DNA of 45,334 bases from an uncultured Ruminococcus sp. (GTDB taxonomy: Bacteria > Bacillota > Clostridia > Oscillospirales > Acutalibacteraceae), in the NCBI GenBank assembly GCA_905235295.1, contig CAJOLF010000002.1, forward strand, positions 1-45,334. Direction: 5' to 3'. The translations under genes and the position numbers were made by a program. How positions within the stretch are numbered: the first letter of the stretch is position 1; each line of letters starts with the position of its first letter. Shown one piece after another: positions 40,787-45,334 of this stretch. Below the pieces are notes generated by a model. It saw only the letters and a list, made by a program, of their open reading frames with translations, ran no database searches and was not told the DNA's origin.

Positions 40787-40835
40787 GCTCAAAGAGCTTA
40801 AATCTATTTTTCGTTAAATCGTTTGCCTGCGTTTT

Positions 40836-40893
40836 ATAACGTAGGTGACCTGTGTTAGTGGTTCAAATGCGTTTCTGCTCGTTTTATGCGGCG
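40836..40893 (+). repeat. 58-bp direct repeat, copy A
   Basis: ATAACGTAGGTGACCTGTGTTAGTGGTTCAAATGCGTTTCTGCTCGTTTTATGCGGCG; 53/58 identical to copy B, counted by eye. Confidence 0.85.
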
Positions 40894-41058
40894 GTCGCTG
40901 CGGCGACACCGCTACTCGTGCAGATAGCACGGTATAGTAATTAATGTTAAATTCCCGACAGCGAGAAAGCGTAATAAATAAAGGTCGGTATAGCGCTCTC
41001 CTTAAAAACGTCACACTGCACTGTTTTCTTAACGCTCGCAATCAAGTCCCTGCATCTT

Positions 41059-41116
41059 ATAACGTAGGTGACTTGTGTTAGCGGTTCAAATATGTTTCTG
41101 CTCGTTTTGTGCGGCG
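41059..41116 (+). repeat. 58-bp direct repeat, copy B
   Basis: ATAACGTAGGTGACTTGTGTTAGCGGTTCAAATATGTTTCTGCTCGTTTTGTGCGGCG. Confidence 0.85.
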
Positions 41117-41231
41117 TGCTCATAGCTATAAGTTGGCGTGGCTCTCTCCCTAAAAACGTCACACTGTGACGTTTTTACCCGCCTGCGGCGGGCACGGTCG
41201 CCTTCAAGTCCGGTCCCCGTTTGCTGGTATA

Positions 41232-41275
41232 AAAAATCGTAGGTGTACCCTTAAATGGGTACACCTACGATTTTT
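41232..41275. terminator. Perfect 19-bp inverted repeat, bidirectional-terminator-like, at the island edge
   Basis: AAAAATCGTAGGTGTACCC-TTAAAT-GGGTACACCTACGATTTTT. Confidence 0.7.
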
Positions 41276-41387
41276 GGTGCCGGTGACCTTCTTCAAAGTT
41301 CATTTTTTCGCATAAACAGTAACATTTTGTTTGATTAGTAGTGCAGTAGTGGTGCATTAGATCGTATTTTAACTTATGTAAACTAAT

Positions 41388-42335
41388 CTATGCTCCGACT
41401 TCAAGCGGTACGACCAGTTGCTGCTGTTCTTCTTTTTCCCTATTTTGATTTGACATCAATACTTTGTCCATATACTTTTCAGCCAATTCCAGGTTTGCAT
41501 TTGTGTATGAATCAAAAGCATCGCAATACGTATTCATCGTGATAGTGATATCTGTATGACCAAGCAGCTTTTGCAATACTTTTGGCTGCATACCTCCTTC
41601 AATACATCTAGTTGCATATGTGTGTCGTAAACTATGCAGATCAATTTTACCTGAAATAGTATCATCTACAATATCATACTTTTCTAAAGTGCGTGAGAAT
41701 TGACAATTCACCTGATTTGTTGTAATCATTTTACCTTTATGCGTAAAAATCAATCCATCTTTCTTCTCCTGAATGCACTCTAAAAGTAATTCGGTTACCC
41801 TTACGCTCATGGGTAAAACTCTTGTTCCGGCAAATGTCTTTGGCGAATTGTTCAGAACGGCTTGGCCCTTCTCGCCTCTGGAAATTGTTTTATTGACGGA
41901 AATGGTTTTGAATCGCAAGTTGACGTCTTTTATTCCAAGAGCATTGATCTCTCCCATACGCATTCCGGTCAACGTTGATAATAACATTTGTTGACTGTAG
42001 TTAATATCCTCACTGATCAATACTTCAAATAGCTTCTTTTGTTCATCCACTGTCAACGCCCGAACTTTTTCTGTTGCTTTTCTGGACTTCGGCTTCTTCA
42101 TGTCCTCCATCGGATTATGGGTGATGATCTTTCTCTTGACAGCTTCCTTAAAAGTATGCTTGAGCATTTGATAATATTTGTTGATACTCGATTGTGAATA
42201 ATTGATTTGCTTCAACAAATAGTCTTTAATTTGCATTTCGGTAGCAGCTTGCAAAGGAGTGTGAGATATCTCATCTAAGCTAGCTAAAGTTGATAGGTGC
42301 CGGTAATAGGTGCCTTCTTTGATCTCGTTATCCAA
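41388..42335 (-). pseudogene. Tyrosine recombinase/integrase, 5'-truncated remnant
   Basis: Catalytic residues present (TGMRMGE, LHSLRHTYATR, LLGHTDITITMNTY), but the N-terminal arm-binding region is missing; the frame opens only at TTG with an upstream stop at 42357-42359. Confidence 0.8.
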
Positions 42336-42543
42336 ATCAAAAACATATAAACAACATTAGTAAGATATCTTATAACAGAATAATTACATATTATTCGTTC
42401 ACTTATTTGTTTATCGTTTTTTGTTGTATTAATACAAAGCAGAAAAAATATATTTAGTTAAGTTGCGAATTGATGTACTATATTATATTAGTGTAGAATT
42501 ATGTTACAAAATGTTACTAGAAATAAAAATTTAGTCAAACATA

Positions 42544-42572
42544 TTGTAATTTTATACAACATGTGTTATTAT
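42544..42572 (+). promoter_or_regulatory. Putative promoter of the HD-domain gene
   Basis: TTGTAA-N17-TATTAT (overlapping TATAAT at 42570-42575). Confidence 0.45.
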
Positions 42573-42602: not shown

Positions 42603-44660
42603 TTGGATCTTAACAGAGTTCAATCTATGACAGATATAATACATAATTCGATTAATTATAGTGGTATCGAAAGAGAAATTATTGGTACTCCTATTTTTAA
42701 TAGGCTTCATAGAGTTATGCAAAGTTCCCTAGTTTATCTTACTTATCCTTCTAATAAAACAAAGCGATTTGAACATAGTATAGGGGTGATGAGTTTAGCA
42801 GGGAAATTATTCTTTTCAAGTATTTGCAATACAGAACCTAATGTTTTAAAAAGTTTGCTTAAAGATATTAAAGATGCTATTAAATCTTGGAGGGAAACCT
42901 GTTCTTCGGAACATCTTTCGTTAGCCGTTCCGAGAAACGCAACAGTGAAATATGAAAAAGATAGCATTCTTACTATTGATATACCAAACAATACTTTATA
43001 TAAGAATTATTTGCCTGAGAATATATCAAATCTTTCTGGTGATGATAAGGTTGCTTATTATATTGCCTTTCAAGCTGTGAGAATTGCTGGTTTGTTACAT
43101 GATGTGGGTCATATGCCGTATTCGCATGTATTAGAACACGCAATTAATAATCTTTATAATAAAGTATCACTAATTCCAGAAGACAAACGTACTGTCAATC
43201 ATCGAGCATTTCTAAAAGATTTATATAATTATTGTGATCCTAACTGCCCTGAAAAAGATGAAATACACGAAGAAATAGGAAAGATTTGTGCTTTAAAGAT
43301 ATATGAGTGTATATCTTATTCTACCGAAGAAAAAGAAGATAACTTCTTCTTTGTAGCGACTTTTGATTTTGCTTGTTCTATACTGCAATCTAAAACTAGT
43401 GATAATAATATATATAGTGATTTACATCAAATAATTGCTGGAATTGTTGATGCAGATAGATTAGATTATTGTAGTAGAGATGCATACTGTGCTGGGCTTC
43501 GCACAGATATAATTAATTATAAAAGATTTTTTGCAACATATTCTGTTTGTCTATTAGATACAGATTCTGCATTGGAAGGAGAACAAGTAAGTCCTAATGC
43601 AAGTTCAAGGAAGCGATTCTGTTTCTGTCCCAATGTAAAGCATGTTATCCAAATTGAAGAGCTTTTACAGCGTCGTTGGGATATTTTCTCATTAATTAAT
43701 TTTCATCATCGAGTTCATAAACACGAAATACTTCTTGAGGAAATAATTGTTGATTTAGGATTAGAAGAATTAAACGATCCTAACGAGATTCAGCCATTAA
43801 AGCAAGGTGTTTTACCTCTTAAAATTTATAGTATATGGCAAATTATTAACTTACTTAAAAGTAATAAACCTCCGGAATACTTGTTAATTCAATTTGATGA
43901 CAGTTGGTTAGATACACTTTTAAAAAGGAAATTCTTTTATCGCTATGAAAAAGATTTCATGTGGTCAAACACACATTCGAATGATATTGATTGGAATAAG
44001 TATGACGAATTGATTTCTTCACAACGTCATTATTTCTCTGGATTTAAACGCACCGATGATTTCAAAAAATTTGATATTTTGCTCTTCTCTAAATTTGTAG
44101 AGAAAATATTTGGTGAGTCTCCGGACGAAAGCGTTCCAGAAGAAATCCGTGAAAAACTAACTGAGGAATTTAACGGTATAACGGACTATAATCGTTTTTG
44201 GTCTACTTATCGATCTTTATTTTTTACATGGATGATATCAAGTACTACATTAAAATTGATTGTTATCCCCGAAGAAAAGAATGAATTAATCTGTAGTATT
44301 CAAGACAAACTGAACGCGATTCTTGCTAAGGAAGATAATGTTCAAGATGTAATAATTAGAGATTGTTCTTTCAAGTTAGGTTGTCCTACACCAAAAAATG
44401 AATTATTCGTTGCTGATCGTGGTATTGCAAAACCATTAAAAAACTATTCCATTATCGAGCACATTTTAAAAGAAAAACGCAACTATTCGCTACCAATACA
44501 TTTGTATTACTTACCCAAATATTCGAATAGCGCAAAATCACCAGATGATTTTGTTGTTAATATAGAGGAAAATATTTATCCACAACTTGTTGAAGCAATT
44601 TGGAGTGTAGTAAAACAACGAATTTGTATTATTAGTGAAATTGAAAAAGGAGAGGCTTGA
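42603..44660 (+). CDS. HD-domain phosphohydrolase, COG1078/dGTPase-like, 685 aa
   Basis: IIGTPIFNRLHRVMQSS, KRFEHSIGVMSLAGKLFF, LLHDVGHMPYSHVLEH, IVDADRLDYCSRDAYCAG: intact H...HD...D metal-binding set. TTG start, or ATG at 42627. Confidence 0.88.
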   Translation: MDLNRVQSMTDIIHNSINYSGIEREIIGTPIFNRLHRVMQSSLVYLTYPSNKTKRFEHSIGVMSLAGKLFFSSICNTEPNVLKSLLKDIKDAIKSWRETCSSEHLSLAVPRNATVKYEKDSILTIDIPNNTLYKNYLPENISNLSGDDKVAYYIAFQAVRIAGLLHDVGHMPYSHVLEHAINNLYNKVSLIPEDKRTVNHRAFLKDLYNYCDPNCPEKDEIHEEIGKICALKIYECISYSTEEKEDNFFFVATFDFACSILQSKTSDNNIYSDLHQIIAGIVDADRLDYCSRDAYCAGLRTDIINYKRFFATYSVCLLDTDSALEGEQVSPNASSRKRFCFCPNVKHVIQIEELLQRRWDIFSLINFHHRVHKHEILLEEIIVDLGLEELNDPNEIQPLKQGVLPLKIYSIWQIINLLKSNKPPEYLLIQFDDSWLDTLLKRKFFYRYEKDFMWSNTHSNDIDWNKYDELISSQRHYFSGFKRTDDFKKFDILLFSKFVEKIFGESPDESVPEEIREKLTEEFNGITDYNRFWSTYRSLFFTWMISSTTLKLIVIPEEKNELICSIQDKLNAILAKEDNVQDVIIRDCSFKLGCPTPKNELFVADRGIAKPLKNYSIIEHILKEKRNYSLPIHLYYLPKYSNSAKSPDDFVVNIEENIYPQLVEAIWSVVKQRICIISEIEKGEA

Positions 44661-44661
44661 A

Positions 44662-44874
44662 ATGGCAGAAAGAGAAATTAAAATTAAAATTGCTAGGATA
44701 ATTATGCAAATGGATAGACCCTTTAGCATTAATGGGCTTATTTATGTTTGCGAACAAAAAGGTATTACTGATGTTGACTTAATACTTGAGGTATTAGCAG
44801 ATTTATGTGATGCCGGAGTTGTTAGTTACTCAGAAATCACTAATGATTGCTGGGGCTATATTTCGCACGTATAG
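44662..44874 (+). CDS. Small (70 aa) winged-helix-like protein coupled to the HD gene
   Basis: RBS AAAGGAG within the HD gene end; ATG two bases after the HD stop. MAEREIKIKIARIIMQMDRPFSINGLIYVCEQKGITDVDLILEVLADLCDAGVVSYSE... Confidence 0.65.
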   Translation: MAEREIKIKIARIIMQMDRPFSINGLIYVCEQKGITDVDLILEVLADLCDAGVVSYSEITNDCWGYISHV

Positions 44875-45067
44875 TTTTATAAGATATTATCCCACATAAT
44901 ATTTCAATGTCTGCGCTCTCAATTAACCATTCTATGCATAGATTTACGATTTTTTGATCTAAAGTGTTAGGAAGGTTGTTTATTAGATCATCTAAAGTAA
45001 AGACTTCAAGTTGCTTGGAGATTTCAACTACTTTAGACGCAGTTATAATCATCATTTTTTTATCCAT
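44840..45067 (-). CDS. Small (75 aa) protein, convergent with and overlapping the previous gene; winged-helix-like layout
   Basis: Good RBS (AAAGGTGTGATAAAATG) and TATAAT box upstream on the minus strand. Confidence 0.6.
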   Translation of the reverse strand: MDKKMMIITASKVVEISKQLEVFTLDDLINNLPNTLDQKIVNLCIEWLIESADIEILCGIISYKTIRAKYSPSNH

Positions 45068-45151
45068 TTTATCACACCTTTTGATTGATTATATCATAGA
45101 ACGATGTAATAATTTATTCTTTTTTGGCGGTAGTAAACATAATAATTTATA

Positions 45152-45185
45152 AAGCATGTAAGCATTTGTCTTACATGCTTTTTTG
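45152..45185 (+). terminator. Rho-independent terminator hairpin
   Basis: AAGCATGTAAG-CATTTGT-CTTACATGCTTTTTT. Confidence 0.75.
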
Positions 45186-45334
45186 ATTTACTTCACATTA
45201 CAATTGCACGTTACTTCAATTTTTGTTGATTTTTGGATAAGGTATAATAAATTGCGCAAAAAGAAAAAGTCATAAAAAGAAGACATAGTTTGCAGAATCT
45301 GTTAGAATGAAGTTACGACACAAAACATTCTGAA

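Follow-up and report, generated by a model that had tools for sequence, protein, structure and literature searches.

The window analysed here is one entire contig (G000:C2) of 45,334 bp from a 1.83-Mb draft genome of 142 contigs. Near its right-hand end lie three genes: a TTG-initiated gene for a 685-aa HD-domain phosphohydrolase (42603..44660, + strand), a gene for a 70-aa winged-helix-like protein that is co-translated with it (44662..44874, +), and a convergent gene for a 75-aa winged-helix-like protein (44840..45067, -). The open reading frame coordinates and strands given in a preliminary description of this DNA were all exact on re-examination, as was its account of a sharp transition to AT-rich sequence. 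The GC content drops from 0.506 at 40-41 kb to 0.404 at 41-42 kb and 0.31 at 42-45 kb, so that the three genes occupy a 31% GC stretch of a 47% GC contig. The contig ends at position 45334, just to the right of these genes, and the sequence was visible up to that point. A terminator-like hairpin lies 3' of the module (45151..45181, +); a single hairpin was found where shuffled sequences yield 1.1, and it is not significant alone.

The three genes are preceded by a tyrosine integrase gene (41388..42335, -) that the preliminary description had called degraded. Its open frame of 322 aa compares with 382-423 aa in most same-genus homologues, its alignments begin at query residue 2-3, and it matches phrog_1 from profile position 180. 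The N-terminal part is indeed missing, the gene being 5'-truncated, but the tyrosine-recombinase core is intact and the gene is not generally degraded. Intergenic repeats occupy positions 40817-41288: a 77-nt unit is present twice, palindromes of the 'CTAAAAACGTCACACTGTGACGTTTTTA' type occur, and positions 41232-41275 form a perfect inverted repeat of 19 nt. These repeats match other contigs of the same genome and many same-genus genomes. We considered whether this metagenome-assembled contig is chimeric. A same-genus homologue is 71% identical to the truncated integrase and, together with the genus-type repeats that precede the integrase, it links the contig to its host; the 31% GC part is tied to the host through these two features alone. 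In an empty-site comparison 3' of glucokinase, the gene content differed in every relative examined.

Fold and active site of the HD protein

The 685-aa protein matches the Pfam HD family (E 1.5e-6). A profile built from nine relatives matched the PDB entries 2hek (8.8e-34), 2q14 (4e-28), EF1143 (2o6i, 1.2e-26) and SAMHD1 (4.9e-24), and a single-sequence search of the PDB also returned EF1143-like and SAMHD1 proteins. The AlphaFold2 (AF2) monomer model, made from an alignment that leaves out one row derived from a plasmid record, is of moderate quality (pLDDT 69, pTM 0.70), with a poorly modelled C-terminus. Its best Foldseek match is EF1143 with dGTP/dTTP (prob 1.00), with SAMHD1 also among the top matches; TM-scores reach about 0.6 on the target, and identity to known dNTPases is 13-18%.

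Residue roles in SAMHD1-type dNTPases were taken from PMC7045340 and PMC12042053. The metal ligands H167, H206, D207 and D311 of SAMHD1 correspond to H58, H166, D167 and D285 in the window protein, bearing out the initial impression of an intact metal site, and are kept in all aligned members of its clade, one of which (L045) is truncated before the H58 position. The catalytic residues H210, D218 and H233 and the arginine R164 correspond to H170, E178, H222 and R55, with glutamate at the D218 position as in EF1143; all aligned members spanning these positions share this set. The AL1 GTP-site residues D137, Q142 and R145 of SAMHD1, by contrast with this intact set, are G28, N33 and H36. Most other members have the pattern S-N-H, and overall eight of nine testable members carry S or G, then N, then H at the three positions, among them the viral-contig member L055, whose row lay outside the residue table and was read from the sequence by eye. 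L044 alone keeps Q142 and R145.

By all sequence criteria, then, the protein looks like a dNTPase, and both its fold and its residues lend good support to dNTPase-type chemistry. It is not SAMHD1 proper, because the AL1 residues are replaced. It also falls outside the Dgt family, scoring 17.6 bits against the full-length dGTPase profile TIGR01353 (cut-off 152), and it matches the PADLOC dGTPase model over a ~29-residue HD motif only (E 0.0022). We infer that it hydrolyses dNTPs. A nuclease, or an enzyme acting on some other phosphoester such as a modified nucleotide or signalling molecule, would accord with the low identity to known dNTPases and with the diverse chemistries of HD proteins (PMC8177086); retention of the full SAMHD1/EF1143 catalytic set, including the arginine (R164) that contacts dNTP phosphate, makes such a substrate improbable.

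The HD clade and its small winged-helix-like partner

The HD protein belongs to a clade of ten members that is set apart from 25 generic HD proteins in a phylogenetic tree (support 100/99). Scores of the HD profile are clearly bimodal, 507-914 for clade members and no higher than 165 elsewhere, nine of the ten members having themselves built the profile. The clade is distinguished by the motif FNRLH..xQNS...YPxNKTxRFxHS and by a specific C-terminal region, its members being 561-699 aa long versus mostly 385-550 aa for generic HD proteins.

In the window, the HD stop codon (44658-44660) is separated by one base from the ATG of the 70-aa gene, which is preceded by a strong ribosome site, AAAGGAGAGG, within the HD gene, in agreement with the translational coupling first proposed. 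A gene for a 66-84-aa winged-helix-like protein lies directly 3' of the HD gene, in the same direction, at all ten clade loci. Partner starts lie at -17 to +17 bp from the HD stop, and at each locus a Shine-Dalgarno sequence can plausibly be assigned, a co-translated two-gene layout like that of type II toxin-antitoxin operons. At L010 a mechanical rule selects a TTG start (-14 bp), and an ATG preceded by GGAGGG gives a gap of 1 bp; at L013 the first match to the rule is an out-of-frame ORF, and the true partner starts at +12. Applied to about 60 generic COG1078-type HD loci, which include some near-duplicates or fragments, the same rule found a small ORF at four, none of them winged-helix-like by eye. 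The difference between the clade and generic loci is significant (Fisher test, 7e-9, using 4/54 for the generic loci). Furthermore, in leave-one-out profile searches each partner ranked first among about 1431 small ORFs drawn from all fetched loci (E 7e-15 to 0.34). The module had been expected to dissolve if the small ORF were not kept beside HD homologues; for the 70-aa gene, this does not apply.

Searches of Pfam and NCBIfam with the small proteins gave nothing significant. The AF2 model of the 70-aa protein (pLDDT 85) has three helices with short strands, and a fold search returned as best matches the winged helices of Zur, BlaI and Fur, all with E above 1; the nearest were the DNA-binding domains of Zur and BlaI. 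We therefore describe the partner as a predicted winged helix. With a pI of 4.5 and a net charge of -5.4, the window's partner is acidic, as is its third helix, and the pI is below 7 in eight of the ten partners; three partners or analogues are basic. Because of this acidity, contact with the enzyme is more likely than DNA binding for the acidic partner.

The same observations bear on whether the small protein is instead an autorepressor of the operon, the HD enzyme working alone. The modelled resemblance to Zur and BlaI DNA-binding domains would suit such a role, and the order of enzyme first and small protein second recalls HigBA-type operons. In addition, two inverted repeats lie 5' of the HD gene (42424..42559), TTGTA-N4-TACAA at 42424 and TTGTA-N6-TACAA at 42544, the second overlapping a promoter-like -35 element. 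These are a lead to a possible operator only, for the motif was picked post hoc and there is no overall enrichment of palindromes (4 observed versus 6.2 expected), so that an overall surplus was discarded as an argument for an operator. With the acidity of the window protein and of most partners also against it, we consider autorepression rather unlikely.

Alternatively, the small protein might sense nucleic acids or nucleotides and activate the HD enzyme, standing in for the lost GTP site. The widespread replacement of AL1 beside an intact catalytic site and the coincidence of partner and clade point in this direction, but loss of AL1 may only reflect another activating nucleotide, and L044 has the partner gene yet keeps Q142 and R145. 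We give this activator role a low probability, while noting that the replaced AL1 site would fit a partner that either inhibits or activates.

The convergent 75-aa gene has its own -10-like element, TGATATAAT, and an AAAGGTG ribosome site. The closest homologous locus, L010, which is the sister of the window (support 100/99), likewise has a 66-aa winged-helix-like ORF in convergent orientation, and the tail-to-tail overlap with the partner gene measures 34-35 bp at the two loci. Searched with the partner profile, the L010 version ranked first (E 0.0014) and the window version second of about 1431, a weak match (E 0.13). No counterpart was seen at the other eight clade loci. The module was originally taken to comprise three genes; the HD/70-aa pair holds at every clade locus, and the 75-aa gene belongs to it in the window and L010 only. 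We take it for a lineage-specific addition, most likely a second regulator.

Distribution and gene neighbourhoods

Clade members were recovered by searching with an alignment of two sequences and later with one of nine. They occur in Bacillota, on one Campylobacterota plasmid (pHRV44 of Nitrosophilus labii, L008) and on one viral contig. Besides the window, they include a rumen Clostridia MAG, Cohnella, a Paenibacillaceae strain and Desulfosporosinus lacus; three further members lie in genomes of the window's phylum and one on the 85-kb viral contig L055. Scans of genome and viral contigs with the protein alone came up empty, and no further members emerged when genomes were searched at class level around G384, G186 and G431. 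Of 98 relatives whose genomes were compared, 59 belong to the same genus; none had a strong HD homologue, and a few order-level genomes gave only short generic HD matches. The gene is thus not a housekeeping gene, and the earlier concern that its homologues might be single-copy core genes of this group is answered by these 98 relatives.

Several other HD loci came to light in these searches. HD genes of Klebsiella phage and plasmids fall among the generic HD proteins, with no winged-helix partner in those examined, and were rejected as instances of the module. A 510-aa generic HD protein is common to a Klebsiella P2-like phage (L009:4980-6512) and Klebsiella plasmids (NZ_CP076548.1:219377-220909), and is possibly a stand-alone accessory gene. 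Plasmid-annotated matches in Bacteroidota, Fusobacterium, Paenibacillus and Acetoanaerobium likewise proved to be generic HD genes beside other genes. On viral contigs, several generic COG1078 HD genes (L063:345-2125, L070:5965-7798, L075:5347-7990) precede a gene for a protein of 172-193 aa, similar in appearance from locus to locus, that had no significant Pfam match and is possibly YwgA-like; this is a further pairing of an HD gene with a partner. Within the clade, the L045 gene (G186:C1:2462342-2463877) seems interrupted: the profile match continues upstream past a TAA that is in frame, and the ORF begins 62 residues further in.

Restriction or abortive-infection genes adjoin the pair at four of the nine other loci, and a PIN toxin lies near a fifth (L045). 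In Cohnella (L011), RmrT/RmrA are directly upstream of the HD gene (PADLOC 9e-81 and 8e-158). The surroundings of L043 hold AbiEi/AbiEii, HEC-01A/B, MNT/HepT, HicA and an IrrE-like protease with DUF4411, an Mrr restriction endonuclease is near L044, and around the L008 pair there are genes for Tn7-like transposition and for an Eco57I-type methylase. At L008 (3876-9757), the methylase is flanked by 519-aa and 231-aa proteins without any Pfam match, possibly as components of restriction or defence cargo, so far undescribed, that the Tn7-like element carries. Reading by eye placed IS21-like genes near L012 and phage-tail-like genes on the L055 contig, where the pair stands beside a tail tape-measure-like gene and a possible homing-endonuclease-like ORF (L055:1372-8327), a setting that suggests phage carriage of the pair. 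No defence genes were found at L010, L012 or L013, and L010 and L013 also had no IS or phage genes.

The defence neighbours at part of the loci are suggestive and do not amount to statistical proof. Of the accessory, possibly defensive role first proposed, the accessory distribution is borne out, and defence is circumstantial. A function in nucleotide-pool housekeeping or regulation, merely carried by mobile DNA and with no part in defence, would be compatible with restriction or abortive-infection neighbours at only four of nine loci and with the position of generic HD relatives beside core genes, for instance one that is lpxD-like by eye. The patchy distribution, low GC content and plasmid, viral-contig and IS context argue against this function, and we regard it as unlikely. 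Known-system components in PADLOC-DB 2.0 gave only the weak dGTPase (HD motif) match and one to PDC-S35 (E 0.017), and the pair is undescribed in PADLOC, Pfam, NCBIfam and PHROGs. A full-text literature search, confined to one open-access library, found no mention of it. Current defence catalogues thus miss the pair, which we found in none of the databases or open-access papers searched.

Proposed working and relation to known systems

What the analysis shows is a gene pair conserved within a single clade, an HD protein with a complete catalytic site and a SAMHD1-like fold, a distribution typical of accessory genes, and defence genes nearby at some of the loci. We propose that these features reflect a horizontally spread two-gene module (three genes in the window) in which a SAMHD1-like dNTPase is gated by a winged-helix partner and serves in antiviral defence, a proposal that we hold to be about evenly poised between right and wrong. 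The HD protein would act as a dNTP triphosphohydrolase of the SAMHD1/EF1143 type. The 70-aa protein would bind it and either keep it inactive or set its trigger, probably at the clade-specific C-terminal region, which generic relatives lack and which would be the natural place for docking. Phage infection, or a similar disturbance of nucleotides or nucleic acids, would release the enzyme, and the released enzyme would drain dNTPs and so block phage replication or halt the cell. Physical binding, gating, dNTPase activity and the antiviral role are all deduced. The modest pLDDT of the HD model and its poor C-terminus, the weak fold matches of the partner (E above 1), the loci that lack defence genes (L010, L012, L013), the three basic partners or analogues and the position at a contig end in a metagenome-assembled genome weigh against this proposal.

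The destruction of dNTPs is an antiviral strategy common to human SAMHD1 and bacterial dGTPases. To our knowledge, how such dNTPases are held off in healthy cells is understood only for SAMHD1 and Clover. An enzyme of the SAMHD1 branch that lacks the guanine-reading allosteric residues and has an obligatory small protein would represent a testable third way of control. More tentatively, and with some doubt on our part, a tiny winged-helix switch might take the place of GTP/dNTP allostery or of a nucleotide signal in a new class of immunity by SAMHD1-like dNTPases, with the second, convergent gene acting as a counter-regulator in one lineage.

The pair shares with the COG1078-type tetrameric dNTPases EF1143 and SAMHD1 (PDB 2o6i, 3irh, 4lrl, 4bzb) the fold, metal ligands, catalytic His/acid/His and phosphate arginine. 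It differs in its clade-specific C-terminal region, its obligatory small winged-helix neighbour and the guanine-reading AL1 residues, which are replaced in eight of nine members. Toxin-first type II toxin-antitoxin systems have a similar abutting or overlapping pair, enzyme first and small HTH-like protein second, but the enzyme here is large, and antidote activity and autoregulation are putative. The anti-phage dGTPase of the PADLOC model (Tal et al. 2022, as related in PMC12265719) also has a probable dNTP-destroying HD effector, which the window protein matches in the HD motif only. In Clover, the dGTPase CloA is toxic without its partner, the nucleotidyltransferase CloB, and defends against phage (PMC12265719); the shared idea is an HD dNTPase with a partner that could restrain it. 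The partner described here is a 66-84-aa predicted winged helix at all ten loci and not a CloB-like nucleotidyltransferase, and its HD enzyme lies on the SAMHD1/EF1143 branch, whereas CloA lies on the Dgt branch. By this analogy, the SAMHD1/EF1143 branch seems to have its own solution in this pair, a second one beside Clover.
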